In this document: one piece after another, positions 2,453 through 49,723 of the stretch | Position numbering within the stretch: the stretch's first letter is position 1 | How the letters are laid out: each line of letters opens with the position of its first letter | Assembly: GCA_009785335.1 (NCBI GenBank) | Contig: WQWM01000013.1 | Span: 1-54,139 of the forward strand | From: Oscillospiraceae bacterium | GTDB lineage: Bacteria; Bacillota; Clostridia; Oscillospirales; Acutalibacteraceae | DNA length: 54,139 bases | Reading direction: 5' to 3' | Translations under genes and position numbers: made by a program | The notes under the pieces: generated by a model | What the model was told of the DNA's origin: nothing | What the model saw: the letters and a program-made list of their open reading frames with translations, nothing else | The model's database searches: none

Positions 2453-2500
2453 GTTCTTTTTTTGCAAAAAAAGAACCAAAAAAACCTAGCCGCTTCGCGG
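2453..2500 (-). repeat. palindromic leader element, copy 1
   Basis: A perfect 24-bp palindrome (GTTC-T7-GC-A7-GAAC, 2453-2476) lies directly upstream of the fucosidase ribosome site. On the minus strand it is preceded by CCGCGAAGCGG-CTAGG-T7. The palindrome faces the start codon. Confidence 0.85.
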
Positions 2501-2540
2501 TTGATTTTTATGAGCTTGCCCATATAGCAGCTCAGTTTTT

Positions 2541-2594
2541 TTTTACAACTTTTTTTCCAAAAAAAGTTGTAAAAGCTTCACGCGCCGCAGCGCG
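2541..2594 (+). repeat. palindromic element, copy 2 (variant stem)
   Basis: A 34-bp inverted repeat (TTTTACAAC-T7-CC-A7-GTTGTAAAA, 2541-2574) lies next to the hisB stop codon. Every stem position pairs, but the sequence outside T7/A7 differs from the other copies. With 2453-2500 it makes an outward-facing pair of about 120 bp. Confidence 0.75.
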
Positions 2595-3155
2595 CTAAAT
2601 TGTTCCCTTCGTGCTCAGCACGCCTGCCTTGGGCTGCAAAGCCTTGCGCAGCGCATGTGCTGCTGCTTTAAATATCGCCTCGGCTTCGTGGTGGGCATTG
2701 GCGCCATAACGTAAGTTTAAATGCAACGTAACTCCGGCATTATGCGCGAGCGCGCGAAAGAATTCCTCGCACAGGCATAGTTCAAACTCACCAGTGACAC
2801 TCTGTGAAAACGCAGCGTTAAACACCAACAGCGCGCGGCCGCTCACATCAACGGTTGCAGCGGCAAGGGCTTCATCCATGGGGATTTCCGCTGCACCAAA
2901 GCGAGCAATGCCGGTTTTGTCGCCCAGCGTTTCGGCCAAAGCCTGCCCCAGCACAATGCCGCAGTCCTCCACCGTGTGGTGAGCATCCACCTCAAGGTCG
3001 CCCACGCAGGTCAGTGTCAGCCCCCAACCCGCATGCACCGCAAGCGCCGTGAGCATGTGGTCAAAAAAACCCACACCCGTGGTGATATTCACTTCACCGC
3101 CTTGCAAGCTTAACTCGGCTGTGATGTCTGTCTCTTTGGTTTTGCGTGTAATCAT
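2595..3155 (-). CDS. hisB: imidazoleglycerol-phosphate dehydratase
   Basis: Converts imidazole-glycerol-3-phosphate to imidazole-acetol-phosphate, the sixth step of histidine synthesis. It is a 186-aa monofunctional HisB without the phosphatase domain. The metal-binding histidine clusters are visible: FFDHMLTALAVHAG, DAHHTVEDCGI and GANAHHEAEAIFKA. The GFFDHML and HHTVED blocks are diagnostic. The start at 3155 (MITRKT) follows AAAGGA; a longer frame translates through the palindromic leader element and is rejected. It lies downstream of hisC and a methyltransferase gene. The operon is interrupted by repeats, and hisH, hisA, hisF, hisI and hisE are not in the window. Confidence 0.97.
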   Translation of the reverse strand: MITRKTKETDITAELSLQGGEVNITTGVGFFDHMLTALAVHAGWGLTLTCVGDLEVDAHHTVEDCGIVLGQALAETLGDKTGIARFGAAEIPMDEALAAATVDVSGRALLVFNAAFSQSVTGEFELCLCEEFFRALAHNAGVTLHLNLRYGANAHHEAEAIFKAAAHALRKALQPKAGVLSTKGTI

Positions 3156-3171
3156 AGTAGCGTCCTTTCTT

Positions 3172-3224
3172 GTTCTTTTTTTGCAAAAAAAGAACCAAAA
3201 AAACCTATGCCGCTTCGCGCGGGG
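3172..3224 (-). repeat. palindromic leader element, copy 3
   Basis: The same perfect 24-bp palindrome as copy 1 (3172-3195), followed on the plus strand by an A7 run and the CGCTTCGCGCG arm. It lies directly upstream of the hisB ribosome site. Confidence 0.85.
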
Positions 3225-3255
3225 GAATTTTAATAATAAGTTGAAGAAGCAAGCC

Positions 3256-3316
3256 CCTGGCTCCCTCTGGTAGAGGGAGCTCCGCCGCAGCGGTGAGGGA
3301 GGGGTGCGGAGCACAA
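3256..3316. repeat. CTCCCTC/GAGGGAG palindromic repeat
   Basis: GGCTCCCTCTGGTAGAGGGAGC forms a hairpin, followed by CCGCCGCAGCGG and GAGGGAGGGG. It belongs to the C-run/G-run dispersed repeats also seen near 6930, 27750 and 33620-33790 and inside three genes. It lies between hisB and the methyltransferase gene. Confidence 0.65.
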
Positions 3317-3321
3317 AAAGC

Positions 3322-4173
3322 CTAGGTGGCTTTTACGGCCCGCGTATACATGGCCACAGGCATGTATTCTCCAAGCAAGCCGCCCCATGTTGGTCGTTCT
3401 TCACGTAAATCAGTCAAGATAAACCCTGCTTTTAGTTGCCCGCCGAGTTGTTCTTCTAACGAATGGCTGAACGTTAAATTTTCGTCGTCGTCTGGCTCAA
3501 CATAGCTTTCGAACAACGCGCGGTCGCGCAACGGGTTCCACGGCAATTTGTATTTAGCAATCAACTGCGCATCGGCCTGCTCCTCGTCGTAATCCGCGAA
3601 CATATACACGCAGGGATTATACATTTGCGCCAACAACAAGCCGCCAGAGCGCAACACGCGGTAGCACTCGCGCCAAACGTGTTCAACATCTTCGATAAAG
3701 TGGTTCGAAATCGGGTGAAAAATTACGTCAAAGCTGTTATCTTCAAACGGAAAAGGCTTTGTCATGTCGGCCTTGACTAGATTGATGTCATACCCCTCAC
3801 GTTCTGCGACCAATTGCTCGCAATGCAACTGCGCATCGGAGTAATCCATCACCGTGCAGGTTGCGCCAAACGCTTGCAGTATCGGCATTTGTTGACCACC
3901 GCCTGCGGCAAGCCCCAGCAACTTCACGCCATCCAGCCGATTGTTATTCAAAAATGGCGCAAACCACTCCTTCGGCACAAGGGTGGGTGTAATGCCTTCA
4001 GGTTCATCCACAAAGGTAACGCTCCAATCGCCGTTTTGCGCTTTAACGTAATCCTCGTGCGAGGTCACGGCACCCCAATATTGTTCATCCGCAACCCACT
4101 TGTTAATGAGCGTCATATTAAAATCCGTGTAGTTTCCATCATTGAGGTCATCAAAATTCGGACGAGTATTCAT
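3322..4173 (-). CDS. class I SAM-dependent methyltransferase
   Basis: A soluble 283-aa methyltransferase of the UbiE/type-11 group. The SAM-binding motif I reads LLGLAAGGGQQ near 97-107, an acidic residue of motif II follows in VMDYSDAQ, and the post-motif region has NSFDVIFHPISNHFIEDVEHVWRE. It ends PVAMYTRAVKAT, a tail typical of this group. The start at 4173 has GAGGAG 11 bases upstream. It sits between hisC and hisB, so it is probably co-transcribed with histidine genes, but nothing links it to that pathway and the substrate is unknown. A second copy of its last codons lies upstream at about 4289-4338. Confidence 0.85.
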   Translation of the reverse strand: MNTRPNFDDLNDGNYTDFNMTLINKWVADEQYWGAVTSHEDYVKAQNGDWSVTFVDEPEGITPTLVPKEWFAPFLNNNRLDGVKLLGLAAGGGQQMPILQAFGATCTVMDYSDAQLHCEQLVAEREGYDINLVKADMTKPFPFEDNSFDVIFHPISNHFIEDVEHVWRECYRVLRSGGLLLAQMYNPCVYMFADYDEEQADAQLIAKYKLPWNPLRDRALFESYVEPDDDENLTFSHSLEEQLGGQLKAGFILTDLREERPTWGGLLGEYMPVAMYTRAVKAT

Positions 4174-4191: not shown

Positions 4192-4242
4192 GCTACTTTT
4201 TTGAAAAAAAGTAGCACAAAAAACTTTAGTCGCGCTGCGCGC
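4192..4242 (-). repeat. palindromic leader element, copy 4
   Basis: The palindrome GCTAC-T6-GA-A6-GTAGC (4192-4215), then CACAAAAAACTTTAGTCGCGC, lies directly upstream of the methyltransferase gene. The outer stem is GCTAC/GTAGC instead of GTTC/GAAC, a compensated change. Confidence 0.85.
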
Positions 4243-4272
4243 GGGGGGATTATTTATGGGACGTTAATAGAA

Positions 4273-4370: not shown

Positions 4371-4421
4371 CCCGCGAAGCGGCTAGGTTTTTTTGGTTAC
4401 TTTTTTTGCAAAAAAAGTAAC
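4371..4421 (+). repeat. palindromic element, copy 5, overlapping the hisC stop
   Basis: The plus strand reads CCGCGAAGCGG (4372-4382), CTAGG, T7, then a perfect 26-bp palindrome (GTTAC-T7-GC-A7-GTAAC, 4396-4421). The palindrome encodes the last residues and stop codon of hisC. With copy 4 it forms an outward-facing pair of about 230 bp. Confidence 0.85.
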
Positions 4422-5434
4422 GCCCCCAACACCGCAGCATTTTCCTCGGGTGACCCCGCTGTGATGCGCAAATGCTCGCCAAGGCAGCGCACCACAATGC
4501 CGCGCTGTTTCAGCGGCTCGAAGTATTGCGCTGCATCGCGCACAAACACAAAATTTGCTGCGCTGCCAATCACCTGCAAGCCGAGCTCGCGCAAGCTTGT
4601 TGCAAGTTCATCGCAGGATTTGCGAATTTGTGTAATGTCGTGGGTCAATCGCTGGGGTTGGCACAGAATAGCCGTGCCAATGGCCTGCGTGAGCGCACCG
4701 ACATTGTAGGGCGACTTCAACGCACGCAACGCACGGGTGAGTTCGGCATTGGCTGCCGCAAAGCCCAATCGCAACCCGGCCATGCCTGCGGCCTTGCTCA
4801 GTGTGCGCAAAATAATGAGATTGCTGTACTGCTCAATTTCATCCAGCAGCGACTGATCTGCAAAGTCCATGTAGGCTTCGTCGTGCACCAGCAGTGTGCC
4901 AGTCTCATTTGCGGCATGTATCAAGCGGCGCACGTCGTCCATGCCCAGCAAAATTGAAGTAGGATTACACGGATTGCTGAACATAAACAGCGCGGGTTTG
5001 TGCTCACGCAGTGCGTTGATGGTAGCGTCAACGTCAATCGTGTAGTCGTCGCGCTTGGGCAGCTGCACGATGTTTGCGCCTGTCACCTGCGCATAAAAGC
5101 GGTACATCGAAAAGTCCGCCTGATAGCACAGCAGAGTTTTATCGGCTCCCAAAAATGCGCTGCACAGCACGAACAAGGCTTCGTCTGCGCCGTTGAAGGC
5201 CGTGAGCAGCCCAGGTTTTGTGCCGTAAAACGCTGCTGCGGCTTGACACAATTTCGTTGCCGCATGGTCTGGGTAACGGCGCAAATCGGTGGTGGTTAGC
5301 GCAGCAAGAATCGCCGCTTGCTCGGCATCGCCCATGGGAATGAACGACTCGTTGGCATCCAATCGCACGGCAAAATCGCCCATGATGGGATCGTAGGGCA
5401 CGAGATTTTTGATGGTGTTGCTTAATTGAAACAT
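4397..5434 (-). CDS. hisC: histidinol-phosphate aminotransferase
   Basis: A PLP-dependent fold-type I aminotransferase of 345 aa that converts imidazole-acetol-phosphate to histidinol-phosphate. Family landmarks: RLDANESF near the N-terminus, FSNPCNPTS, HDEAYMDFA, and LRTLSKAAGMAGLRLG with the Schiff-base lysine in SKA. The start at 5434 (MFQLSN) follows AGGTGG; the longer frame reads back through a MITE-like repeat and is rejected. Its C-terminus (LLFLQKK, stop) is written by the palindromic element at 4396-4421, so the native tail may have been replaced. It is directly downstream of hisD with only a repeat between them. Confidence 0.95.
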   Translation of the reverse strand: MFQLSNTIKNLVPYDPIMGDFAVRLDANESFIPMGDAEQAAILAALTTTDLRRYPDHAATKLCQAAAAFYGTKPGLLTAFNGADEALFVLCSAFLGADKTLLCYQADFSMYRFYAQVTGANIVQLPKRDDYTIDVDATINALREHKPALFMFSNPCNPTSILLGMDDVRRLIHAANETGTLLVHDEAYMDFADQSLLDEIEQYSNLIILRTLSKAAGMAGLRLGFAAANAELTRALRALKSPYNVGALTQAIGTAILCQPQRLTHDITQIRKSCDELATSLRELGLQVIGSAANFVFVRDAAQYFEPLKQRGIVVRCLGEHLRITAGSPEENAAVLGALLFLQKK

Positions 5435-5447
5435 AAATTTTATCCAC

Positions 5448-5543
5448 CTGTAGGGGCGGATGCAAATCCGCCCGGAGTTGAAAGAACACACTGCTACTTG
5501 ATTGTTGATTATGCTTCGGGCGGATTTGCATCCGCCCCTACAG
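5448..5543. repeat. MITE-like element between hisD and hisC
   Basis: A 96-bp element with inverted ends CTGTAGGGGCGGAT. Both halves are themselves palindromes (GGGCGGAT, TTGC or GCAA, ATCCGCCC). It exactly fills the gap from the hisD stop codon (5544) to the hisC ribosome site. Confidence 0.85.
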
Positions 5544-6827
5544 TCACATAAACCGTATAGTTGCAGCATTGCCATGCGCCCGCAATTGCTCAGCTTCGGC
5601 GATCACTGCAATGTCATCTTTCGCGGCATGCAAGGCTTCACGGGTATAATACACAAACTGCGTTTTCTTCACAAAATCGTCCACGCTAAGCGGCGAAAAA
5701 AAGCGCGGCGTGCCGCCAGTGGGCAGCACATGGTTTGTGCCGGCGTAATAATCGCCCACGCTTTCGGGCGTGTAATGCCCCAAGAAAATCGAGCCTGCGT
5801 TATGCACATCGCCCAGCAACGCCAGTGGATTTTCCACGCAAAGCTCTAAATGCTCGGGTGCGTACTGGTTGGCGTAATCAAGTGCTTGCTGTAAATTTTC
5901 GCACACGAGCATTGCGCCGTTGTTCACTAGGGCTTGCAGTGCAATGTCTTTTCTGGGCAGGATAGCCACCTGCTTTTTAAGCTCAGCCAGTGTTTCTTCG
6001 GCAATGTTTTGCGAAGTTGACAATAACACCGCACCCGCTAAAATATCATGTTCAGCTTGTGATAATAAATCGGCGGCTAGCCATGCGGGGTTTGCCGTTT
6101 CGTCCGCCACAATGAGGATCTCGCTTGGCCCGGCAATCATGTCGATGTCCACTACGCCATACAACAGCTTTTTTGCCGTTGCGCCGTAAATATTCGCAGG
6201 TCCCACGATTTTGTCTACTGTTGGCACGCTTTGTGTGCCATGGGCCATGGCGGTCATAGCGGGCGCGCCACCCAGCAAAAACACGCGGTCCACCCCGGCA
6301 ATATGCGCGGCGGTCAATATCGCATCGCAGGCTTTGCCCTGCCATGGCGGCGTGCACAGAATGACCTCCTTCACGCCTGCAATGCGCGCGGGAATCACGT
6401 TCATCAGCACGCTAGACGGCAATGGTGCGGTGCCGGCGGGCACATAAACGCCAACACGATGCAATCCACGCACGGTTTGGCCAAGCATGCTGCCGTTGGC
6501 TTGCGTGGTGAACCAGCTTTGCTGCTTTTGACGTTCGTGGAAGGCTTTGATATTCTCAGCAGCTGCGTGCAATGCAGCCCGCAGCTTGGGTTCGCAAGTG
6601 TCATAAGCTGCCTGGATTTCCTCACGCGGCACTTCGAGCTTCGTTAGCTCGCACTTATCAAACTTGCGAGCATAGTCACGCAACGCAACATCGCCGCGTG
6701 CACGCACATCGGCAATGATATCCTGCACCACGGCAGTCACTTGCGCATCCACTTCGCTAGCGCGGGCTTTGAGCTTATCGAACACGGCCAATTCGCGCTG
6801 GCCATCGCAGTTGGTGATGGGTAGCAT
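5544..6827 (-). CDS. hisD: histidinol dehydrogenase
   Basis: The 427-aa zinc enzyme that oxidises histidinol to histidine with two NAD. Recognised by the GLHRVGVYVPAGTAPLPSSVLM block, the KIVGPANIYGATAKKLLYG block, DMIAGPSEILIVADE and the metal-site region SQAEHDILAGAVLL, with the C-terminal NHVLPTGGTPRFFSPLSVDDF signature. Length is normal. The start at 6827 is preceded by AAAGGAT. It follows hisG on the same strand and precedes hisC. Confidence 0.97.
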   Translation of the reverse strand: MLPITNCDGQRELAVFDKLKARASEVDAQVTAVVQDIIADVRARGDVALRDYARKFDKCELTKLEVPREEIQAAYDTCEPKLRAALHAAAENIKAFHERQKQQSWFTTQANGSMLGQTVRGLHRVGVYVPAGTAPLPSSVLMNVIPARIAGVKEVILCTPPWQGKACDAILTAAHIAGVDRVFLLGGAPAMTAMAHGTQSVPTVDKIVGPANIYGATAKKLLYGVVDIDMIAGPSEILIVADETANPAWLAADLLSQAEHDILAGAVLLSTSQNIAEETLAELKKQVAILPRKDIALQALVNNGAMLVCENLQQALDYANQYAPEHLELCVENPLALLGDVHNAGSIFLGHYTPESVGDYYAGTNHVLPTGGTPRFFSPLSVDDFVKKTQFVYYTREALHAAKDDIAVIAEAEQLRAHGNAATIRFM

Positions 6828-6843: not shown

Positions 6844-6898
6844 GCTACTTTTTTGAAAAAAAGTAGCGCAAAAAACTTTAGCCGCCTTCGGCGTGGGG
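6844..6898 (-). repeat. palindromic leader element, copy 6
   Basis: GCTAC-T6-GA-A6-GTAGC (6844-6867), then GCAAAAAACTTTAGCCGCCTTCGGCG, lies directly upstream of the hisD ribosome site. The GC arm reads CCGCCTTCGGCG here rather than CCGCTTCGCGG. Confidence 0.85.
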
Positions 6899-6925: not shown

Positions 6926-6972
6926 TCGGCTCCTTCCTTGGGAAGGAGCTGGCACGCGTCGCGCGTGACTTT
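6926..6972. repeat. CTCCTTCC/GGAAGGAG hairpin repeat
   Basis: GGCTCCTTCCTTGGGAAGGAGC followed by CACGCGTCGCGCGTG, two adjacent hairpins in the hisG-hisD gap. It belongs to the same dispersed class as 3256-3316. Confidence 0.6.
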
Positions 6973-13908: not shown

Positions 13909-14000
13909 CCGGGCGGCGTAATCGCCGCCCCTACATGTTGCGGCTTATTGTAATGTTGTGGAAAATATCGACCTGTAGGGGCGGCGATTACGCCGCCCGT
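13909..14000. repeat. paired MITE-like units between tatD and metG
   Basis: Two palindromic 27-bp units (CGGGCGGCG, TAAT, CGCCGCCC, CTACA) lie at 13909-13935 and 13973-13999 in inverted orientation. Here the CTACA ends face inward, the reverse of the arrangement at 1011, 5448 and 43551. Confidence 0.8.
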
Positions 14001-14004
14001 GCAC

Positions 14005-20725: not shown

Positions 20726-21586
20726 CTATTTCTCCCAATCTCGTTTATCTTTCAGCTCGTTATATAGCGCCACATAGCTTTCGTGGCGGCTTTGCGCAAT
20801 TTCCCCTGCCGCAACGGCAGCCAGCACAGCACAGCCGCTATCTTTCACGTGTGCGCAGTCGTGAAACCTGCACTGGTCGGCATAATCGGCGAACTCCACA
20901 AAGCCTTGCGCCACGTTATCTTTGTCTAGCTCCAGGGCCTCAAAAAAAGCAAAGCCCGGGGTGTCGGCTACCCAACCACCCGCTGCAGGAAATAGCTGCA
21001 CATGGCGTGTGGTGTGGCGACCGCGCCCGAGCTTTTGGCTCACCTCACCGGTGGCAAGCTGCAATTGCGGTGCAATGCGATTGAGCAATGTGGACTTGCC
21101 CACGCCGGTGTTGCCGCAAAATGCGCTAGTTTTGCCTGCGAGCAGTGCAGCGATATCGCGCACATCGGTGTCAGGGTCAACTGAAAATGTGGGGTAGCCG
21201 CAGTTGGCGTAAATTTGCACAAAGGGCTGTGTGTCATCCAAATCACCTTTGGTGAAGACGATAACGGGCGCGATGCTCGCGATTTCCGCTGTGGCAATCA
21301 GGGTATCTAACAGCGGCAGATTGGGGCGTGGTTGGCGCATGCTGCAAAGCAAAAACAGCTGATCAAGATTAGCCACAGGCGGGCGGCGCAGCTCATTTTG
21401 GCGCGGCGCAATGGCGGTGATGTAGCCTTCAATCTCGCCGCCGCTGTGCAGTTCAATGTCGCAAAAATCGCCAACAAGCGGAGTGATGCCTTGCTTGCGG
21501 AACAAACCGCGTGCGCGGCACACCACCATGCCCTGTTCGGTGTTCACGGTGTAGTTATTGCCTTGAATACTGTGGATTCTATGCAT
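20726..21586 (-). CDS. rsgA: ribosome small-subunit GTPase RsgA
   Basis: A circularly permuted GTPase that acts in late 30S maturation. The 286-aa protein has an OB-fold N-terminal domain (1-65), then G4 (FTKGD, about 111-115, TKGD rather than NKxD), G1 GNTGVGKS (158-165), G3 DTPG (208-211) and a C-terminal zinc site with the spacing C-x4-C-x-H-x5-C at 239-252. The start at 21586 (MHRIHS) overlaps the prkC stop by 8 bases, with GAGGT inside prkC; an in-frame ATG 27 bases earlier is less likely. prkC-rsgA is the standard Firmicutes pair. Confidence 0.97.
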   Translation of the reverse strand: MHRIHSIQGNNYTVNTEQGMVVCRARGLFRKQGITPLVGDFCDIELHSGGEIEGYITAIAPRQNELRRPPVANLDQLFLLCSMRQPRPNLPLLDTLIATAEIASIAPVIVFTKGDLDDTQPFVQIYANCGYPTFSVDPDTDVRDIAALLAGKTSAFCGNTGVGKSTLLNRIAPQLQLATGEVSQKLGRGRHTTRHVQLFPAAGGWVADTPGFAFFEALELDKDNVAQGFVEFADYADQCRFHDCAHVKDSGCAVLAAVAAGEIAQSRHESYVALYNELKDKRDWEK

Positions 21587-23756
21587 AGACCTCCAGCACA
21601 ATTTCATCTTCAAGATTCAGCCACTGCCAAGCGCGCGGTATTTGCGTGGCCACCGTGCCTGCAGTGCCATCGCCAAGCGGAACATCGACAATCACGATGT
21701 TATTAAAACCAAAATATTGCAGGCGCTGCACGGCAGTGTTGGTGGTGTCGCCCACCACATTGGGAATTTGATGCAGTGGGTCTGGTGTTGCACCATGTTC
21801 GTTGGAACTGACAATGACAGGCGGATTGACGCGGAAATTGATGGTGGCGGAATACAAAATGTCACCGTCCAGATAGGCACGCAGTTGCGCGCTTTCGCCG
21901 CGGCCACGAATTTCAAAGGTGCGCGGGCCATTGAGCGGCACATTTTGGTTGAGCACTTGCTCGCCGTCCATATAGATGGTCAACCTGCCCTGCGTGAGCA
22001 CCCAGCCGCGGCTTGGCACCGGAATGGACACGTTGATGCTGGGGATGACACCAGAGCTGACCACAACGTTCACACGTGTGCCAGATGCAACGATTTCGCC
22101 GGCATCAATGCTCTGCGCGATGACGCGGCCTTGTTGTTCTTCGTCAGGTTGAACTGTTACGGTGCCCAACTGCAGGTTCACGCTTTCCAGCAAGTCTTGT
22201 GCTTCTTCAACGGTCCAGCGCAGTAGTTCTGGCACTTCGCTATCCAGATCAGGGTCACGCGGGATGGCAACATAAAGGATAATCACTTGCCCAAGGTCAA
22301 CGCTGGTGCCGTGGCGTGGGTCTGTGCGCACAACATGGCCTTCTTCCACACGGGTGGTCACATAGCGTTGCGTGCGCGGCAATAATCCCAGCTCGCGCAG
22401 TTCGGCTTCTGCTTCCGCTAGGCTTGTGTTACGCACGTCGGGTACGCGGCGGGCAACGTCCCCTGCCACAAACAGCGTCACAGACACACGCATGCGCGTT
22501 TCGCCGTCAACTTCCACGTTCTCAGGGGCTACACGTGCGCCGGCTTGCGGCTCTTGGCGCACAATGGTGCCTGGTTCTTGGCCGCTGTCTGGGTCACTGA
22601 CGATGGTGAATTCATAGGTGCGCCGCCAAGTTGCGTTTTGCTGCACGGTCATTTCGTTCATGCCCACAAAGTCTTGCACGCGCACGCGGTCATCTTGGCC
22701 AAGGAAGAAAATCACAACAGCCACAATCGCAAGCAAGCCTACGATACCGCCAACAATACCCAGCATAATTTGCAGGTTGCGGTTTTTGGGCGCGGGCGCA
22801 GGTTGAAATTCATCGGTGTGCGGTGCAGGTGCGGCAGGGCGCAGCGGTGTGAGCGCACGGGTTTCGCCCGGCGAAATGTAGCGCGTGGCGGTTTGTGCCA
22901 CAGGGGCGTAGTCAAACACCACGGCGGGGTTGCGCTTGAATTCTTCAAGATCCAGCAGCATTTCAGCCGCACTTTGGTAGCGGTCGGCGGGGTTTTTCTG
23001 CATGGCACGCAGGGTGATCTGCTCCAGCCCTGCGGGGAATTGGTCGTTGATTTCACGCGGCAAACGCGGCTGTGTTTGCAGCTGCATGATGGCGATGCTC
23101 ACGGTGCTGTCGCTTTGGAAGGGCAGCTGCCCGGTGAGCATTTCATACAGGGCTACGCCCAGTGAGTAGATGTCGCTTTTGCTGTCGGTGAGGTCACCGC
23201 GAGCTTGCTCAGGCGAAATATAGTGCACAGAGCCAATGGCGTTTTCGCTGATGGTGCGGGTTTCGCTGCGGGCCAAACGTGCAATGCCGAAGTCCGTCAC
23301 TTTGATGTTGCCGCTGTGCAGCAGCATGATGTTTTGCGGCTTGATGTCGCGGTGCACCACGCCCCGGTCATGCGCATGCTGCAATGCGCGCAAAATCTGC
23401 GTGAGAAAATGCACGGCTTCTTTCCACGGCAGCACGCGGCGCTGCTCAATATATTCTTTGAGCGAAATGCCTTCCACATACTCCATGACGATATATTGCA
23501 GTCGCTCGCCATAGCTCACGTCATACACCTTCACGATGTTTGGGTGGCTCAGCATGGCGATGGCGCGGCTTTCGTTTTTAAAGCGACGCCGGAACTCCTC
23601 GTTGGCCAAGCATTCATCCTTAAGGATTTTCACGGCCACGGGGCGGTCGTCAATGTTATCATAGGCGCGGTAAACAATGGCCATGCCGCCAATGCCCAGC
23701 ACCTCTTGAATTTCATAGCGGCCGTCTAAGACTTTGCCGACGTAGTTATAGTCCAT
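21579..23756 (-). CDS. prkC: PASTA-domain serine/threonine protein kinase
   Basis: A membrane sensor kinase for muropeptides and lipid II, controlling cell-wall growth. The 725-aa protein has a Hanks-type kinase domain (about 14-275: LGIGGMAIVYRA loop, AVKILKD lysine at 43, HRDIKPQN 135-142, DFG 155-157, SPEQARG), a proline-rich juxtamembrane stretch, a membrane segment at about 330-353, and extracellular PASTA-like units at about 355-430, 433-500, 503-570 and a last one at 662-725 (IPNVVGDTTNTAVQRLQYFGF). A non-PASTA beta stretch separates the last two. It is paired with the PP2C gene prpC upstream and rsgA downstream. A palindromic leader element lies before its start. Confidence 0.96.
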   Translation of the reverse strand: MDYNYVGKVLDGRYEIQEVLGIGGMAIVYRAYDNIDDRPVAVKILKDECLANEEFRRRFKNESRAIAMLSHPNIVKVYDVSYGERLQYIVMEYVEGISLKEYIEQRRVLPWKEAVHFLTQILRALQHAHDRGVVHRDIKPQNIMLLHSGNIKVTDFGIARLARSETRTISENAIGSVHYISPEQARGDLTDSKSDIYSLGVALYEMLTGQLPFQSDSTVSIAIMQLQTQPRLPREINDQFPAGLEQITLRAMQKNPADRYQSAAEMLLDLEEFKRNPAVVFDYAPVAQTATRYISPGETRALTPLRPAAPAPHTDEFQPAPAPKNRNLQIMLGIVGGIVGLLAIVAVVIFFLGQDDRVRVQDFVGMNEMTVQQNATWRRTYEFTIVSDPDSGQEPGTIVRQEPQAGARVAPENVEVDGETRMRVSVTLFVAGDVARRVPDVRNTSLAEAEAELRELGLLPRTQRYVTTRVEEGHVVRTDPRHGTSVDLGQVIILYVAIPRDPDLDSEVPELLRWTVEEAQDLLESVNLQLGTVTVQPDEEQQGRVIAQSIDAGEIVASGTRVNVVVSSGVIPSINVSIPVPSRGWVLTQGRLTIYMDGEQVLNQNVPLNGPRTFEIRGRGESAQLRAYLDGDILYSATINFRVNPPVIVSSNEHGATPDPLHQIPNVVGDTTNTAVQRLQYFGFNNIVIVDVPLGDGTAGTVATQIPRAWQWLNLEDEIVLEVYA

Positions 23757-23775: not shown

Positions 23776-23828
23776 CCACTTTTTTGAAAAAAAGTGGCGC
23801 AAAAAACTTTTGACCGCTTCGCGGGGAA
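23776..23828 (-). repeat. palindromic leader element, copy 7
   Basis: CCAC-T6-GA-A6-GTGG (23776-23797), then CGCAAAAAACTTTTGACCGCTTCGCGG, fills the prpC-prkC gap upstream of the prkC ribosome site. Confidence 0.85.
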
Positions 23829-27680: not shown

Positions 27681-27746
27681 CTATGATAGGCACTGCGTGT
27701 AAACTCGCACTTCGCGATGGATTTTATAGGCATGTGTAGATGTTGC

Positions 27747-27840
27747 CAAGGCCTCCCCCTTGGGGGAGGAAAGCGCGTCGCAGACGTGCAGGTGGGGGTT
27801 GCATAAAAGAACCAAAAAACGTTAGTCGCTTCGCGAGGGC
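27747..27840. repeat. C-run/G-run repeat and palindromic-element remnant
   Basis: GCCTCCCCCTTGGGGGAGG (hairpin) with CGCGTCGCAGACGTGC follows the dispersed C-run/G-run class. At 27803-27838 the sequence AAAGAACCAAAAAACG-TTAGTCGCTTCGCG is a half copy of the palindromic element without its hairpin. Confidence 0.6.
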
Positions 27841-27883
27841 TTGTTATAGTCAATTAACTTGAAAAACGCTATATGCTAGTCCT

Positions 27884-29605: not shown

Positions 29606-30043
29606 TTACCTCATCCTATCCTTAAATACAATGCCATCCATGTGGTCAACTTCGTGCAAAAAGGCCCGTGCCTTGAGGTCGCTGGCCTTGAAGATGAACC
29701 ATTTGCCGTGGCGGTTTTGCGCCTTGATTTTCACCACCATGGGGCGGATAGTATGCGCCTTTTCGCCAGGGAATGACAGGCAACCCTCTTCTTGCCGCTG
29801 ACGACCGCTGTGGCCAATCACCTCGGGGTTGACCATTTCGATGAGGCCATCGCCGGTGTCAATCACTGCCACGCGGCGCAGCACACCCACCTGCACAGCA
29901 GCCAGACCACAGCCTTCGGCCACACGCATGGTGTGTGCAAGGTCATCAATGAGCATCGCCAGCCGCTGGTCAAATTTCTCCACGGGGCGGCTTTTTTGGC
30001 GCAAAATGGGATCATTGCCTTTTACGATTTTACGGATTGCCAT
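29606..30043 (-). CDS. def: peptide deformylase
   Basis: Removes the formyl group from nascent proteins. The 145-aa protein has the three signatures: GCGLAAVQVG near residue 44 (Cys in the variable second place), EEGCLSFPG near 86 whose Cys binds the metal, and HEVDHMDG near 130 with both metal His and the catalytic Glu. Short C-terminus ending KDRMR. The start at 30043 has GGAGGAACA upstream. It lies 11 bases after priA on the same strand, as in other Firmicutes. Confidence 0.96.
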   Translation of the reverse strand: MAIRKIVKGNDPILRQKSRPVEKFDQRLAMLIDDLAHTMRVAEGCGLAAVQVGVLRRVAVIDTGDGLIEMVNPEVIGHSGRQRQEEGCLSFPGEKAHTIRPMVVKIKAQNRHGKWFIFKASDLKARAFLHEVDHMDGIVFKDRMR

Positions 30044-35359: not shown

Positions 35360-35413
35360 CACAGCGAAGCGACCTTAAAAGTTTTTTGTGCTACTTTTTT
35401 TCAAAAAAGTAGC
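35360..35413 (+). repeat. palindromic leader element, copy 10
   Basis: ACACAGCGAAGCGACCTT, AAAAG, T6, GTGCTAC-T7-C-A6-GTAGC (palindrome 35390-35413), directly upstream of the GH4 ribosome site (GAAAGGA). Confidence 0.85.
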
Positions 35414-35429
35414 AAGAAAGGAAATCGAC

Positions 35430-36767
35430 ATGAAAATTTGTTTTGTTGGTGCAGGCAGCACCGTGTTTGCGCGCAATGTGCTGGGCGATTGCATGATGAC
35501 TGAATCGCTGCGTGAAGCTGAAATGGCATTGTATGACATTGATGGTGGCCGCTTGGAGGATTCGTATACCATCCTCAGCGCAATGAACAACACCGTGAAT
35601 GAAGGCCGTGCACGGCTGACGAAATTCCTGGGCGTGGAGAACCGCAAAGATGCGCTGCGCGATGCGGACTTCGTCATCACGGCTATTCAAGTGGGGCTTT
35701 ATGACCCTTGCACCATCATCGACTTTGAGGTGCCTAAGAAATATGGCTTGCGCCAAACCATTGCCGACACCCTAGGCATCGGCGGCATTTTTCGCGCACT
35801 GCGCAGCATTCCTGTGTTTGCTGATGTTGCGCGTGACATGGAGGAAGTTGCGCCGCGTGCCCGCATGCTCAACTATGTGAACCCCATGGCCATGATTACC
35901 GGCTATATGCAGCGCTACACGAACGTGCCAACGGTTGGGCTGTGCCACAGCGTGCAATCATGCTCCAAGGTGTTGCTGAGCATGCTGGGCATGGGCGACA
36001 AAGTGGAGGGTCATCGCGACCTGATTGCGGGCATCAATCACATGGGTTGGCTGCTGAAAATTGAAGACAAAGACGGCAACGACCTCTACCCTGCTATCCG
36101 CGAAAAATCGAAAGAGAGCATGGAAAGTGGCCTGATTTACGACATGGTGCGCTATGAGTACATTCAAAAGCTCGGTTACTACTGCACCGAAAGCAGCGAG
36201 CACAACGCCGAGTATAACCCATTCTTTATCAAGAGCAAATATCCCGAATTGATTGAACGCTACGGCATTCCCTTGGATGAATATCCGCGCCGCTGCGTGA
36301 GCCAAATTGCCAAGTGGAACGCCGAAAAAGAAGAAGTCCTAGCGAACGCCCAGCGCGGCCACCACCGCAGCGATGAATACGGCGCGGCAATCATGAATGC
36401 CGTGGTGACCAACGTGCCCACGAAAATCGGCGGCAACGTGCTCAACACTGGCGGGCTGATTGAAAATCTGCCGCATGATGCTTGCGTGGAAGTTCCCTGC
36501 ATGGTGGATGGCAACTTCGTTAACCCCTGCCGTGTGGGTCGCTTGCCTGTGCAGTTGGCTGCCATGAACCTGACGAATATCAACGTGCAGATGTGCACCA
36601 TTGAAGCTGCCGTGACACTGAAGAAAGAGCACATCTACCACGCTGCCATGATGGACCCGCACACCGCCAGCGAGCTGAGCATTGATGATATCATCGCCAT
36701 GTGTGACGAGCTGATTGAAGCGCATGGCTGCATTGACAACGGCGGCTACTTGCCGAAATATAAATAG
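35430..36767 (+). CDS. glycoside hydrolase family 4 (alpha-galactosidase-like)
   Basis: A 445-aa NAD- and Mn-dependent GH4 enzyme, which cleaves by oxidation at C3 and elimination. Seen: an N-terminal Rossmann MKICFVGAGSTVFARN, the region LRDADFVITAIQVG, NYVNPMAMITGYM, the metal-binding GLCHSVQSC and GINHMGWLLKIED. The NPMAM and CHSVQ pattern fits alpha-galactosidase/alpha-glucuronidase members better than 6-phospho-beta-glucosidases. It is cytoplasmic. The start at 35430 follows AAAGGAAATCGAC; a longer frame in the leader element is rejected. An alpha/beta hydrolase follows after 17 bp. Confidence 0.9.
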   Translation: MKICFVGAGSTVFARNVLGDCMMTESLREAEMALYDIDGGRLEDSYTILSAMNNTVNEGRARLTKFLGVENRKDALRDADFVITAIQVGLYDPCTIIDFEVPKKYGLRQTIADTLGIGGIFRALRSIPVFADVARDMEEVAPRARMLNYVNPMAMITGYMQRYTNVPTVGLCHSVQSCSKVLLSMLGMGDKVEGHRDLIAGINHMGWLLKIEDKDGNDLYPAIREKSKESMESGLIYDMVRYEYIQKLGYYCTESSEHNAEYNPFFIKSKYPELIERYGIPLDEYPRRCVSQIAKWNAEKEEVLANAQRGHHRSDEYGAAIMNAVVTNVPTKIGGNVLNTGGLIENLPHDACVEVPCMVDGNFVNPCRVGRLPVQLAAMNLTNINVQMCTIEAAVTLKKEHIYHAAMMDPHTASELSIDDIIAMCDELIEAHGCIDNGGYLPKYK

Positions 36768-43528: not shown

Positions 43529-43550
43529 TACGCTTGAAATTATCGCGCCC

Positions 43551-43636
43551 CGCGTGTAGGGGCGGCAACCTGCCGCCCGTGAAATTTTTAACTGTGTGGG
43601 TGAGGAGCAGGCGGTTAATAGCCGCCCCTACACGCG
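43551..43636. repeat. MITE-like element with 15-bp perfect inverted ends
   Basis: CGCGTGTAGGGGCGG (43551-43565) and its complement (43622-43636) enclose 56 bp. The left inner part is again palindromic (GCGGCAACCTGCCGC). It is the cleanest copy of the family seen at 1011, 5448 and 142-224. Confidence 0.85.
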
Positions 43637-43665
43637 ATTTTGTGTGAATGGAGAGACGAGGCTTT

Positions 43666-45026: not shown

Positions 45027-45560
45027 ATGAACATCAAAGGAACAAAGACCGAGCAAAACCTGCGCGATGCTTTCGCAGGCGAATCACAAGCCCGCAACAT
45101 GTACACCTATTTTGCCAGCAAAGCCAAAAAAGACGGATTTGTGGAAATTTCGCAAATCTTTGAGGATACCGCTAACAACGAAAAAGAGCACGCGAAAATC
45201 TGGTTCAAGCTGCTGCAAGAAGGCGGCGAAATCGGCACCACATTGGACAACCTTCTCTCCGCCGTCGCAGGTGAACACCACGAAAACGTGGAAATGTATC
45301 CCGGCTTTGCAAAAATTGCTCGCGAAGAAGGCTTTGAGCAAATCGCCGTGCTGTTTGACCAAGTTGGTGCCATTGAAAAACACCACGAAATGCGCTATCG
45401 CAAACTGGCCGACCAAGTGAAAAACGACACCGTCTTCACCAGCGACAACGCCAACACCGCTTGGGAATGCGGCAACTGCGGCCACGTGCATGTGGGCGCA
45501 GAGGCAGTGAACATCTGCCCCGTCTGTCGCCACCCCAAGGCCTATTTCTTCGCACAATAA
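45027..45560 (+). CDS. rubrerythrin
   Basis: A peroxide-reducing non-haem iron protein of anaerobes. The 177-aa protein has a di-iron four-helix domain (about 1-140) with the Glu and ExxH ligands in FAGESQARNMYTYFASKA, NEKEHAKIWFKLL, GEHHENVEMYPGFA and GAIEKHHEMRY, and a C-terminal rubredoxin-like FeS4 site WECGNCGHVH ... CPVCRHPKAYF. It needs electrons from rubredoxin or NADH systems. Start at 45027 after AAAAAGGAG. It precedes the ferredoxin/AOR genes. Confidence 0.96.
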   Translation: MNIKGTKTEQNLRDAFAGESQARNMYTYFASKAKKDGFVEISQIFEDTANNEKEHAKIWFKLLQEGGEIGTTLDNLLSAVAGEHHENVEMYPGFAKIAREEGFEQIAVLFDQVGAIEKHHEMRYRKLADQVKNDTVFTSDNANTAWECGNCGHVHVGAEAVNICPVCRHPKAYFFAQ

Positions 45561-45567
45561 ATTTTCT

Positions 45568-45614
45568 GTTCTTTTTTGAAAAAACCACCTGCGGTGGGGC
45601 TCCTCGCTTCGCGG
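45568..45614. repeat. broken palindromic element and CCACC-GCA-GGTGG module
   Basis: GTTC-T6-G-A6 is the left half of the palindromic element; its right arm is replaced by CCACCTGCGGTGG and GGGCTCCTCGCTTCGCGG. The latter is the module also found inverted at 52413-52461 and in the 44-bp repeats at 54017 and 54096. Confidence 0.6.
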
Positions 45615-45643
45615 TGTTCTATTACGGACTATTCAAAATCCAT

Positions 45644-45691
45644 CGCGAAGCAACTAAAGTTTTTTGCGCTACTTTTTTTCAAAAAAGTAGC
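45644..45691 (+). repeat. palindromic leader element, copy 11
   Basis: GCGAAGCAACTAAAG, T6, GCGCTAC-T7-C-A6-GTAGC (palindrome 45668-45691), directly upstream of the ferredoxin ribosome site (AAAGGAG). Confidence 0.85.
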
Positions 45692-45709: not shown

Positions 45710-46120
45710 ATGGCAAAGGTATTAAGAACTGAGGGCATGGGGCGTTGCATTGGCTGCTTCAGCTGCATGCTGATGTGTGCTGGTGTGAATCGCAAGAATC
45801 ATTCGACTAGCCGCAGCGCAATTGCCGTGCAAACCCGTGGCGGGATGAGCGGCAAATTCGTGGCGGTGGTGTGCCAGGCGTGCAGCGAACCCAAATGCGC
45901 GCAGGCTTGCCCAACGGATGCACTGGTGCTGCGCAAGGGCGGCGGTGTGACTGTGGATGAAAGCAAGTGCATTGCTTGCCACACCTGTGTGAGCGCATGC
46001 GCTGCGCAAGCCATTGGCTGGGACGACGATGTTAACGCGCCGATTATCTGCCGGCACTGCGGCGCATGCACACGTTTTTGCCCGCACAATTGCTTGGCGA
46101 TGGAAGATGTGGAGGACTAG
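45710..46120 (+). CDS. four-cluster [4Fe-4S] ferredoxin-like electron-transfer protein
   Basis: A 136-aa polyferredoxin of the HycB/AOR-associated type. Sixteen cysteines are arranged for up to four [4Fe-4S] clusters: CIGCFSCMLMC, CQACSEPKCAQAC, CIACHTCVSAC and CRHCGACTRFC. No membrane segment. The next gene encodes an aldehyde:ferredoxin oxidoreductase starting 6 bases on, so it almost certainly takes that enzyme's electrons. The start at 45710 follows AAAGGAG; the longer frame reads through the leader element and is rejected. Confidence 0.93.
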   Translation: MAKVLRTEGMGRCIGCFSCMLMCAGVNRKNHSTSRSAIAVQTRGGMSGKFVAVVCQACSEPKCAQACPTDALVLRKGGGVTVDESKCIACHTCVSACAAQAIGWDDDVNAPIICRHCGACTRFCPHNCLAMEDVED

Positions 46121-47922: not shown

Positions 47923-48150
47923 ATGAACATCACCGTAACCGCAGGCAGCTGGGCGCGCGCATGGTTGCCTGGCGACAAAGTGCAACTCACGCTCCCCCAC
48001 CCCGCCGTTGTGCAAGACGTACTGGCTGCGCTAAATTTTCCCGCCGACGAAGTCGGGCTCTTCGCCATCAACGGCATTGCCGTGCCCCAAGATACACCGC
48101 TGAACGACGGCGACACCGTGCGGCTTTTTCCTGTTGCCATGGGCGGGTGA
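47923..48150 (+). CDS. MoaD/ThiS-family sulfur-carrier protein
   Basis: A 75-aa ubiquitin-fold protein ending in GG, the thiocarboxylate-forming tail of MoaD/ThiS proteins. The strand AGLFAINGIAVPQDTPL-like part (GLFAINGIAVPQDTPLNDGDTVRLFPV) is typical. In AOR operons it is thought to give sulfur for the pterin dithiolene. It lies 34 bases after the AOR gene, with GAGAAAGG upstream. It ends a transcript that meets an outward-facing palindromic element. Confidence 0.88.
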   Translation: MNITVTAGSWARAWLPGDKVQLTLPHPAVVQDVLAALNFPADEVGLFAINGIAVPQDTPLNDGDTVRLFPVAMGG

Positions 48151-48168: not shown

Positions 48169-48207
48169 ATTACTTTTTTTGCAAAAAAAGTAATCAAAAA
48201 AACCTAG
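48169..48207 (-). repeat. palindromic element, copy 12
   Basis: A 26-bp palindrome ATTAC-T7-GC-A7-GTAAT (48169-48194), then CAAAAAAACCTAGC. It faces the MoaD stop codon. With copy 13 it forms an outward-facing pair of about 156 bp whose middle contains AACCCAACT/AGTTGGGTT. Confidence 0.85.
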
Positions 48208-48278
48208 CATTAAATCATTATGAAACCCAACTCACTGCGTGGCAGGAAGTTGGGTTCTGTTATTTCTATCATCGTCCA

Positions 48279-48324
48279 CCGCGAAGCGGCAAAAGTTTTT
48301 TGGTTCTTTTTTTCAAAAAAGAAC
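48279..48324 (+). repeat. palindromic element, copy 13
   Basis: CCGCGAAGCGG (48279-48289), CAAAAG, T7, GG, GTTC-T7-C-A6-GAAC (palindrome 48303-48324), 13 bases from the transporter stop codon. Confidence 0.85.
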
Positions 48325-48337
48325 ACTCTCGCAAAAA

Positions 48338-49588
48338 TCACGCGTCTTTTTTCGCATCGACTTTGCGTCGCCATTTCAGCAATTGCATGAGCACTACGCC
48401 GGTGAGGGCACAGGCAGAGGCGATGATGAATGCGGGGAACATGTAGCGGATATCGCCATTATGTTGAACGACTAGGTTGTTGAAATGACCGCTGATTTGC
48501 CCAGCGGCAATGGCACCAGCGCCGAAGCCCAGCAGAACAAAGCCGTAGTTGCTGGCCATGTGTTTGGGGCCAAAGAGGTCTGCGGTGAGCACCGGGAATG
48601 TGCCTAGCACGCCGCCGTAGCAAAGGCCGATGAACGCCACCAGCACAAACACGCCACCGCCTGAAATTACGCCAACCAGCAGCGAAAGCACAGCCGAACC
48701 GCCAAGCATGAGCATAATGGTGTTCTTACGGCCGAGTTTGTCGCTCAGCCAGCTCCAGCCCAGGCGACCAATGGCGTTGAACATGCTCACCACCAGCACA
48801 CCAAAGCTTGCGATGTCTGGATTAAAGCCATGTGCCTGCAAAATGGGGCTAACAAAGCCGATCATCATCAGCCCGCCCATGCATGCCACTGCAAAGGTGG
48901 TGACACATAGATAAAACTTAATGCTTTTCAGCATTTGCATGGGGGTATAATTCTTGATGGGCCTGGCGTTAGATTTCGCAGCAGCTTGCTCCAGCCGCCA
49001 ACCTTCGGGCGGGTTTTTGCAAAACAGGCTGCCCACCGTGCACACCACAAAAAATACAATAGCGAGGACGCGGAAGGTGCTCTGCTCGCCATAGCCAACG
49101 CCGCCAAATTGCACAAGCAACCACTGCGCCGCAGGCGAGAACATCACCCCGCCCAGACCTAGCGATGAAACAATAATACCGGTGATCATGCCTTTGCGGT
49201 GCGGATACCATTTTTGTGCACAGGCAATGGTGGTGGAATAAGTGAAACCCATGCCCAAGCCACCCATGATGCCGTAGGTAATCCAAAGCAGCCAGCCCCA
49301 TTGTGCCGGCACAAACGACGCCCCCAAAAAGCCCAAGCTAAGCACCAGTCCGCCGATGAACACAATGCGGCGTGTGCCATAACGAATGCCCAGTTTGCCG
49401 CCCAGCGCGCCGCCAACGGTCAGCGTAGCCAGTAGAAGCGAAAACGTTAGCTGTGCAGAGGCGTGGTTACCGTTAAACAGCGAATTGGCAATGCCGTTTT
49501 GAAACAAGCTCCATATGTATGCGATACCCAGTGTCATCTGTATACACACAGACGCCAACACGGCGTATACCCCAGGTTTCCGAGACAT
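48338..49588 (-). CDS. OFA-family major facilitator transporter
   Basis: A 416-aa 12-segment MFS protein of the oxalate/formate antiporter family. Diagnostic sequences: ASVCIQMTLGIAYIWSLFQNGI in helix I and the loop IRYGTRRIVFIGG; GGLGMGFTYSTTIACAQKWYPHRKGMITGIIVSSLGLGG is the family's helix IV-V region. The substrate (oxalate, formate, lactate, pyruvate or other monocarboxylate) cannot be told from this. The cytoplasmic end is basic (KWRRKVDAKKDA), with the stop just beside a palindromic element. Start at 49588 after GGAGG. Confidence 0.88.
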   Translation of the reverse strand: MSRKPGVYAVLASVCIQMTLGIAYIWSLFQNGIANSLFNGNHASAQLTFSLLLATLTVGGALGGKLGIRYGTRRIVFIGGLVLSLGFLGASFVPAQWGWLLWITYGIMGGLGMGFTYSTTIACAQKWYPHRKGMITGIIVSSLGLGGVMFSPAAQWLLVQFGGVGYGEQSTFRVLAIVFFVVCTVGSLFCKNPPEGWRLEQAAAKSNARPIKNYTPMQMLKSIKFYLCVTTFAVACMGGLMMIGFVSPILQAHGFNPDIASFGVLVVSMFNAIGRLGWSWLSDKLGRKNTIMLMLGGSAVLSLLVGVISGGGVFVLVAFIGLCYGGVLGTFPVLTADLFGPKHMASNYGFVLLGFGAGAIAAGQISGHFNNLVVQHNGDIRYMFPAFIIASACALTGVVLMQLLKWRRKVDAKKDA

Positions 49589-49604
49589 AAAAACCTCCTT
49601 TTAT

Positions 49605-49662
49605 GCCACTTTTTTGAAAAAAAGTGGCGCAAAAAAACTTCAGCCGCTTCGCGGGGGACTAC
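49605..49662 (-). repeat. palindromic leader element, copy 14
   Basis: GCCAC-T6-GA-A6-GTGGC (49605-49628), then GCAAAAAAACTTCAGCCGCTTCGCGG, directly upstream of the transporter ribosome site. Confidence 0.85.
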
Positions 49663-49670
49663 GATAGACC

Positions 49671-49723
49671 ACAGCGAAGCGATGTAAAGTTCTTTTGGTT
49701 ACTTTTCTTTCAAGAAAAGTAAC
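49671..49723 (+). repeat. palindromic element, copy 15, with internal compensated change
   Basis: CACAGCGAAGCGATG, TAAAG, TTCTTTTGG, then GTTAC-TTTTCTT-TC-AAGAAAA-GTAAC (49698-49723). Inside the usually invariant T7/A7 stem a T-A pair has become C-G, with both strands changed. It faces the acyl-CoA synthetase stop. Confidence 0.85.

Follow-up and report, generated by a model that had tools for sequence, protein, structure and literature searches.

The stretch of DNA analysed here, called the window below, comprises 54,139 nucleotides of contig WQWM01000013.1 from the assembly of an Oscillospiraceae bacterium (GCA_009785335.1), and it carries fifteen copies of a short T/A palindrome, most of them accompanied by an adjacent run of T. 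We propose that these copies belong to a dispersed, probably mobile, non-autonomous REPIN-like DNA repeat selected for a single-strand triple-helical hairpin fold, a reading that the sequence comparisons presented below render probable. The element reads, on one strand, T-run 1, G (1–2 nt), outer stem, T-run 2, a 2-nt loop, A-run and outer stem. In the proposed fold, T-run 2 and the A-run would form an inner stem, T-run 1 would fold back along the A-run, in parallel, as a Hoogsteen third strand (T.A-T, C+.G-C), and the outer stem would clamp the base of the hairpin. Where relatives have a long outer stem, the linker that joins T-run 1 to it may continue as a purine third strand on the clamp, with A or T facing A and G facing G, the third strand switching its partner strand at the junction, i.e., an alternate-strand triplex. 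Such a fold may form in cells on single-stranded DNA at replication, where some enzyme acting on it might copy and insert the element, and the position of the copies at the borders of coding sequences might result from insertion being tolerated only between a stop codon and a Shine-Dalgarno (SD) site, or in the last codons of a gene. The sequences themselves show coordinated strand changes, the position of the copies, doublets in inverted order and, in one relative, gaps that lack the element.

The source genome is designated G000 (an assembly of 2.245 Mb in 58 contigs); other G numbers denote genomes or genome groups scanned, and L numbers denote loci, i.e., stretches of DNA. A palindrome search recovered all fifteen of the T/A palindromes that an earlier note on the window had reported, at 2453, 2541, 3172, 4192, 4396, 6844, 23776, 26844, 27631, 35389, 45668, 48169, 48303, 49605 and 49698, and the differing yet pairing outer stems quoted in it proved correct; hairpins found by the same search at 29338 and 37931 are of a different type and are not members. 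The T-run and arm described beside each palindrome are present at most of them, although the arm is missing at 2541 and 48169 and degenerate in several others. Nine copies do lie ahead of a ribosome site, as had been reported (2453, 3172, 4192, 6844, 23776, 27631, 35389, 45668 and 49605), and the other six adjoin gene 3′ ends. The elements of the window are as follows.

2453 to 2500, reverse strand: element 1, GTTC stem, T7GCA7; 5′ of the SD site of gene 1145–2434.
2541 to 2574, forward strand: element 2, long TTTTACAAC stem, 34 nt, without arm; towards the 3′ end of gene 2595–3155; outside the 77 copies counted below.
3172 to 3222, reverse strand: element 3, GTTC stem; 5′ of the SD site of gene 2595–3155.
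4192 to 4243, reverse strand: element 4, GCTAC stem, T7CA6; 5′ of the SD site of gene 3322–4173.
4372 to 4421, forward strand: element 5, GTTAC stem; the palindrome contains the called stop codon of gene 4397–5434 (3′-end overlap).
6844 to 6895, reverse strand: element 6, GCTAC stem; 5′ of the SD site of gene 5544–6827; none seen at the matching site in relative L049.
23776 to 23826, reverse strand: element 7, CCAC stem; 5′ of the SD site of gene 21579–23756.
26818 to 26867, forward strand: element 8, GTTC stem; 14 nt to the 3′ end of gene 26882–27610; stem unchanged in relative L045.
27631 to 27675, reverse strand: element 9, GTTC stem, T7CA6; 5′ of the SD site of gene 26882–27610; in a gap of 273 bp that is 10 bp in L045.
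35362 to 35414, forward strand: element 10, (T)GCTAC stem; 5′ of the SD site of gene 35430–36767.
45642 to 45691, forward strand: element 11, GCTAC stem; 5′ of the SD site of gene 45710–46120.
48169 to 48208, reverse strand: element 12, ATTAC stem, without arm; between the stop of gene 47923–48150 and a unique hairpin that looks terminator-like by eye.
48279 to 48324, forward strand: element 13, GTTC stem; 13 nt to the 3′ end of gene 48338–49588; doublet with element 12.
49605 to 49654, reverse strand: element 14, GCCAC stem; 5′ of the SD site of gene 48338–49588; T-run T7 against A6, one of four exceptions to the mirror rule.
49668 to 49723, forward strand: element 15, GTTAC stem with a C-G pair inside; T-run TTCTTTT mirrors TTTTCTT; 6 nt to the 3′ end of gene 49730–51400; doublet with element 14.

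The feature that the earlier note overlooked is that the adjacent T-run co-varies with the palindrome. In the copy at 49698 a T-A pair of the stem is replaced by C-G on both sides, as had been pointed out, and T-run 1 there, TTCTTTT, mirrors the paired TTTTCTT. To act as a parallel third strand of the Hoogsteen type, a run has to be such a mirror and not a reverse complement. The hairpin that had been taken as the selected structure has a real stem, but it makes up two of three strands, the T-run behaving as the third with covariation of its own. The window was combined with 20 stretches of 20 kb from G000 (400 kb of the 2.245 Mb), picked by position before reading, 454,139 bases in total. The palindrome scan of these bases returned 81 T-first palindromes of this make-up and a single A-first one; three of the 81 (L019:17990, L022:1001 and L028:16633) were non-members by eye and were removed. 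Family copies were defined by a T-run plus a T/A core, with no outer stem required, and 5 of 82 cores, that at window 2541 included, were dropped for want of a T-run, leaving 77. The length of T-run 1 mostly equals that of the A-run (T6 with A6, T7 with A7, among the G000 copies listed), four of the 77 breaking this length rule, and the mirror rule is kept in 73 of the 77 (shuffled mean 33.9, maximum 49, in 5000 shuffles). It is kept equally at gene 5′ ends (35/38), at 3′ ends (33/34) and in copies overlapping the 3′ ends of coding sequences (5/5).

The rule was then followed across genomes: 94 loci from 19 genome groups yielded 185 hairpins, spread over 15 of the groups and oriented solely by the purines that flank them. 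Of the 75 informative hairpins, 56 fit the parallel mirror (10.2 on average after shuffling, 19 at most) and none fits the antiparallel arrangement alone; if T-run length is required to be at least 6, the parallel mirror fits 42 of 48, and again none is antiparallel only, over 10 groups and with unrelated stems across genera. These counts supersede an earlier version, in which the wrong side had been taken for some tandem copies and in which, out of 60 informative hairpins, 41 fitted only the parallel and 3 only the antiparallel arrangement, 2 fitted both and 14 neither; its three antiparallel rows, all from G048, appear consistent when read from the other side. In this species of the same genus the all-T pattern has no match, and there are 33 C-bearing palindromes, CTTTTCTT/AAGAAAAG, together with a second palindrome kind in which TCTTTTT is mirrored by TTTTTCT. 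The rule-obeying T-run variants include TTCTTTT, TCTTTT, TCTTTTT, CTTTTT, CTTTTTT, TTCTTT and TTCTTTTT.

The strongest single result is a matched non-mirror control, in which a C was allowed in T-run 1 either at positions 2–3 (mirror) or at positions 4–5 (identity) over 295 genomes. The mirror pattern matched 28 of these and the identity pattern 23; on passing from the former to the latter, 78 matches were lost and one was gained (G420). Losses were seen in G190 (24 to 0), G422 (18 to 5), G275 (13 to 1), G408 (9 to 3), G379 (7 to 1), G207 and G223 (5 to 0 each), G353 (4 to 0), G415 (3 to 2), G419 (1 to 0) and G024 (275 to 274), and genomes with all-T copies were unchanged (G000 with 142, G382 with 29, G284 with 25, also G308 and G235). 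At least two of the 78 lost matches disobey the mirror rule (G024:C1:123877 and G379:C71:25906); among the C-bearing copies listed for the mirror pattern, 61 of 64 obey it by eye, G275:C31:15222 being the third exception. The identity-pattern matches listed include two C-bearing copies (G275:C31, G420:C8), neither of which obeys the identity rule, and in G000:C1:184999 the T-runs are intact and the A-run is not. Antiparallel pairing of T-run 1 with the A-run was rejected, given that no informative hairpin fits it alone and that the non-mirror pattern loses matches.

The outer stem, too, speaks for a folded strand. A perfect 4-bp outer stem is present in 74 of the 77 copies, whereas 1000 shuffles of the 3′ sides leave 21.7 on average and 37 at most. 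In 37 equal-length copies (11 distinct, from G000 and two relatives), 99.2% of cells pair, against 91.5 when shuffled, and the covariation score is 0.241 against 0.076, neither value being reached in 500 shuffles; three pairs are changed on both sides against 1.3 (18/500 shuffles as high), and the number of pair types carries no signal (5 against 4.8). The compensated stem changes put forward previously are therefore real, the covariation that was to be looked for among genome copies and relatives is present, and the folded strand appears to be selected or copied. The predicted folding of single-stranded DNA, for five palindromes tried, ranges from -6.6 to -8.8 kcal/mol. A chance origin was rejected on the 81 to 1 orientation of the palindromes and on the outer-stem shuffles. 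Extrapolation from 77 copies in 454 kb suggests about 380 in the whole genome; five of the 20 stretches (L012, L014, L019, L023 and L024) hold none.

In other genera the outer stem extends to 5–13 bp, mostly 8–11, and the linker from T-run 1 to the stem to 3–11 nt, against 1–2 nt in G000. The letters of this linker tend to mirror those of the stem's purine strand, e.g., AAAGGGAG with GAGGGAAAA, and two copies of one genome that have different stems differ in the linker as well (in G408, GAGA with AAGAAC and GGGA with AAGGGG). Of 394 genomes of the order, 51, from 27 of 169 genera, contain the pattern AAAGTTTTTG-N10-28-CTTTTT-AAAAAG, which is absent from G000. From 22 of the 51 pattern-bearing genomes, 103 distinct linkers were collected, after dropping string repeats within a genome and the composite strings of G024 and G308, and their mirror match to the clamp averages 4.14 of 6 against 2.86 when shuffled (maximum 3.18 in 5000 shuffles), 40 of them matching at 5 or more of 6 positions (7.8 shuffled). 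A direct-repeat control gave little signal (2.78 against 2.67), and for the 31 linkers whose clamp was confirmed in the DNA the match rises to 4.55 against 3.00 (maximum 3.65). The third-strand letter over A is A in 162 cases, T in 80, G in 20 and C in 4, and over G it is G in 235, A in 22, T in 19 and C in 11, a table that is partly biased in that the register was picked by best identity and T over A is frequent at a single position, the TTC turn.

These preferences, A or T facing A and G facing G, match the code that PMC4666352 describes for the antiparallel purine motif. The same paper states that purine-motif triplexes cannot form in RNA; DNA is therefore favoured as the folding molecule. 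A third strand lying parallel over the inner stem and antiparallel over the clamp would be geometrically consistent, because the purine strand swaps side at the junction while the third strand keeps one direction. Alternate-strand triplexes are known from chemistry. It is likely the T-run-first strand that folds, since T over A would misfit the pyrimidine motif of the opposite strand; a fixed turn motif may account for some of the T signal. The broader claim, namely that selection for an intramolecular alternate-strand triplex shapes the evolution of a natural class of DNA elements across the Oscillospiraceae and related families of the order (their clamped hairpin bearing a third strand in the pyrimidine motif on the inner stem and in the purine motif on the clamp), is one that these alignments may bear out, and we give it an even chance.

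The copies stand in a close relation to genes, which were called with a simple in-house caller (85% coding). None of the 77 lies deep within a gene, so the random scatter inside genes against which the earlier proposal was to be set is not what is seen. A coding sequence lies no more than 40 nt from the palindrome end in 74 of the 77 and from the arm side in only 4; when copies are placed and oriented at random in the same gaps, the figure for the palindrome end is 22.5 (maximum 34). Gene 5′ ends are faced by 39 copies, 35 of which lie 13–26 nt from the start codon with the SD site directly after the palindrome, and 3′ ends are faced by 38, which lie within 33 nt past the stop or overlap the last codons. 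The name "leader element" given previously thus suits only half of the copies. A leader-only RNA element was rejected on account of this 3′-facing half, of the equal mirror integrity at both ends and of G024, where 1 of 48 copies is near a gene. All 12 neighbouring pairs within one gap are inverted doublets in the order - +, palindromes outermost, spanning 112–272 bp, and between convergent copies a unique terminator-like hairpin can be discerned by eye (L016 8759/8890, L030 16456/16581 and window 48169/48303). In other genomes, a gene is found no more than 40 nt from the palindrome side in 12/12 copies of G424/G425, 10/16 of G048, 3/4 of G207/G379, 4/7 of G275/G223/G353, 1/1 of G190, 2/6 of G422, 0/4 of G308 and 1/48 of G024; abutment of genes is not general across genomes. 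At some sites (L027 4800–4975, window 4397–4421, L028 8313) the element apparently supplies the last codons and the stop, so that its insertion alters C-termini.

A scan of named GTDB genomes with the exact pattern returned 35 stretches, 33 of them in two Oscillospiraceae metagenome-assembled genomes (MAGs), Lab288P1bin84 (G424) and Co191P1bin34 (G425), which, from their isolate names, we take to be from termite gut; the remaining two are from one Oscillospiraceae SIG577 and one Acetobacteraceae MAG, and loci L059 and L060, from other taxa, were left out of the relatives. G424 and G425 are syntenic with G000, the ten longest matches being 73.5–86.9% identical. Abundance comes in lineage bursts, with 173 and 281 matches (both strands summed) in two genera and none in G048, and a scan of viral contigs for the element pattern found none. 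Among 47 comparisons of orthologous gaps (45 distinct gaps), the core is in both genomes in 8, in G000 only in 6, in the relative only in 2 and in neither in 31, the stretches of other genomes having been chosen around matches and those of G424/G425 fetched as element-bearing, which biases presence in the relatives upward. The gap at 27610–27883 has 273 bp here and 10 bp in L045, and that at L020 11245–11423 has 178 bp against 14 bp in the relative; in both short gaps the stop codon and the SD site nearly overlap. The other four G000-only gaps are filled in the relative with different sequence. At L027 4800–4975 the element takes the place of the gene end and provides the stop, in comparison with L054 (L045, L036 and L054 are all from Lab288P1bin84). 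Insertion is suggested as the simpler reading of the empty gaps, although all the clean-empty ones come from one relative, where loss may explain them. Some shared sites have a switched stem type and a similar arm (L022:17400, L027:8146, L013:11231 and L021:1255), which suggests exchange between copies or repeated insertion.

Several points weigh against a mobile triplex-forming repeat, besides the bias of the third-strand table and the single source of the clean-empty gaps. Nineteen of the 75 informative hairpins misfit the mirror rule, and a G/C-rich hairpin family that accounts for 11 of these also supplies 5 of the 56 that fit (T-run CCTT). A clamp of at least 5 bp without a bulge is found in only 40 of 60 long-linker copies, the lengths of linker and clamp are weakly correlated in those 40 (0.37), and 4 of 22 aligned clamp rows (G101/G249, G415) fail to pair in that register. 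Copies within one genome are related, so the counts overstate their independence, and at some orthologous sites elements are shared unchanged, turnover thus not always being fast. No transposase, target duplication or autonomous copy was found, PF01797 being the sole mobiliser family searched and boundaries having been seen at few sites. Matches to this Y1 transposase number 4 in G000, 3 in G024, 1 in G425 and none in G424 or in G048, which has 33 copies. The RAYT genes of L179 and L180 stand directly beside a different repeat, TAGGGGCGAGC, in the usual REP arrangement; in L174 a TAGGGGCGAGC repeat likewise lies upstream of the gene, and members of the family studied here are found at distances of about 310 and 610 bp; at L177 the reading frame was not resolved. 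A RAYT enzyme may still be the mobiliser, although these arrangements lend it no support. Finally, for TMECO, the best-studied triplex repeat, in vivo footprinting gave no support for stable formation, according to the main text of PMC4666352.

The main rival is an RNA element, in which the 5′-leader transcript would form a U.A-U triplex hairpin by the SD site, tuning translation or messenger RNA decay, the 3′ copies being stabilising hairpins. The spacing of 35 of the 39 5′ copies, 13–26 nt from the start codon, agrees with it, and pyrimidine-motif triplexes are said to form in RNA (PMC4666352); at the 38 copies facing 3′ ends, however, the sense RNA is the reverse complement, a purine-type strand, and the mirror rule is equally kept, which the youth of the copies might explain. 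The purine third strand over the relatives' clamp cannot form in RNA (PMC4666352), the copies of G024 lie away from gene borders (1/48 near), and each of the outer-stem mismatches among the 77, only three cases, is an A.C when read in the adjacent gene's sense RNA. We hold the RNA element to be unlikely. Rather less probable still is a function in double-stranded DNA, the mirror and inverted repeats acting as H-DNA or cruciform under supercoiling, or as a nucleoid-protein site, and marking operon borders. Copies on both sides of coding units would suit this, as would the enrichment of E. coli inverted repeats beside stop codons and about 20–45 bp upstream of starts (PMC6060812); a protein site, however, would not leave the sequence of the outer stem free while its pairing is kept, and the element-free sites in a relative oppose a conserved border role.

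That no selection at all is involved, and that template switching, which copies one half of the palindrome from the other, together with gene conversion among the copies maintains the hairpin, appears very improbable. Orthologous sites do often switch stem type while the arm stays, but such copying restores an inverted repeat and not a mirror repeat, and it therefore fails to explain T-run 1 or the linker. Least of all do we expect a part of a terminator or attenuator, i.e., a CCGCGAAGCGG hairpin followed by a T-run: by eye, arm and T-run resemble a short terminator in one direction, but separate, unique hairpins that look terminator-like by eye stand between convergent copies, some copies have no arm, and a C at the mirror position of the T-run would go unexplained.

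The preferred triplex-forming DNA repeat has close known kin, which qualifies the earlier statement that no described family has this pattern. That statement agrees with the absence of Rfam 15 matches at gathering score in the window, where a tRNA scan also found none, and no description of the family was found among the papers listed from the mainly open-access literature on intrastrand triplexes, REP/MITE repeats, Faecalibacterium, termite Oscillospiraceae repeats, palindromes between stop codon and SD site, bacterial messenger RNA triple helices and alternate-strand triplexes; close known kinds do exist, however, namely PIT/BoxC/TMECO (PMC4666352) and REPINs (PMC3116915). The nearest are the PIT/BoxC triplex motifs, judged from the main text of PMC4666352 (and, via it, the work of Hoyne and Maher), which are likewise abundant extragenic repeats with third strand, pyrimidine and purine blocks ordered on one strand. 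The order of PIT class IV (Hoogsteen, Y, R; parallel third strand) is found here in the 73 of 77 copies, and across genomes in the 42 of 48 hairpins with T-runs of at least 6 and the 56 of 75 overall. In E. coli, too, PIT/BoxC occurs in inverted pairs and its copy number differs sharply between close relatives (PMC4666352). The limits of the PIT search, stems of 6–15 nt and loops of 1–6 nt, would include T6/T7 copies with GGTTC or GGTTAC loops and leave outside those with GCGCTAC loops (7 nt) and the T5 families. In contrast to PIT/BoxC, the present element is T/A-rich, not G/C-rich, has a covarying outer-stem clamp and here abuts coding sequences, and its third strand seems, in relatives, to switch from one partner strand to the other; the fold is moreover tested by covariation between genera. 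The TMECO/BoxC consensus CCCTCNCCC..GGGNGAGGG..GGGNGAGGG does not fit this T/A-rich element, and the strings 'covaria', 'Faecalibacterium' and 'Clostrid' each occur zero times in the main text of PMC4666352.

With REP/REPIN repeats and their RAYT genes (PMC3116915), the element shares short extragenic palindromes, high copy number, lineage bursts and inverted doublets (here the 12 of 12 in the order - +, 112–272 bp); unlike them, it has no clear RAYT link and carries an adjacent mirror T-run. Miniature inverted-repeat transposable elements (MITEs) are likewise short and non-coding, with doublets resembling terminal inverted repeats and insertion polymorphism; the doublet ends compared here, however, mostly have different stems, and no parent transposon or target duplication was found, PF01797 alone having been searched. 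Triple helices of U.A-U type in RNA (ENE, MALAT1) place a U-rich third strand on a U/A stem, the A-rich partner coming from elsewhere in the RNA, whereas in the present element a single hairpin of about 35 nt holds the three runs, and DNA is the likelier molecule.

The role of triplex DNA in bacteria has been open since the PIT elements were described, abundance alone being insufficient to settle it. If the present interpretation is correct, three-strand covariation would provide comparative evidence that DNA triplexes matter biologically in bacteria, and the element would be a mobile one that is read by shape and not by sequence, a candidate structure-recognised repeat explaining part of the intergenic DNA of these bacteria. 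Three strands changing together across genera according to the Hoogsteen codes would make the question testable, the variants predicting which oligonucleotides fold.

Other repeats were seen alongside. The intergenic gaps of G000 are patchworks of repeat modules in a recurring order (CTCCCCC..GGGGGAGGCCTTGGCAACACCTACACA, CATAAAAATCC, CCGCGAAGCGG, T-run, palindrome). Half palindromes are joined at their T- or A-run to a CCACCTGCGGTGG module at window 45555–45584, upstream of L018 1141 and at L022 4193–4266, as if other repeats may insert into the T/A run. Hairpins of the G/C-rich kind (CTCCTTCC/GGAAGGAG, CTCCCTC/GAGGGAG) lie near a GAGGAAGG or GAGGGAGG run, in a BoxC/PIT-like manner, at window 3240–3300 and 6929–6950, at L041 4909 and 4980 and at L049 662 and 732; a mirror test of 67 of them in G000 was not clean (mirror R 11, mirror Y 30, direct R 10, direct Y 19), and nothing is claimed from it. 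Two identical 44-nt copies at the contig end (window 54017–54060 and 54096–54139) perhaps mark a repeat within which the assembly broke off. Another family of dispersed palindromes, TGTAGGGGC..GCCC, occurs in the window at 71–120, 188–221, 5441–5552, 13909–14002, 29573–29606 and 43548–43637 and in L174, L179 and L180; its TAGGGGCGAGC form directly flanks two RAYT-like genes, which is the classic REP/RAYT arrangement, and in L174 a copy of this family lies within the RAYT reading frame.

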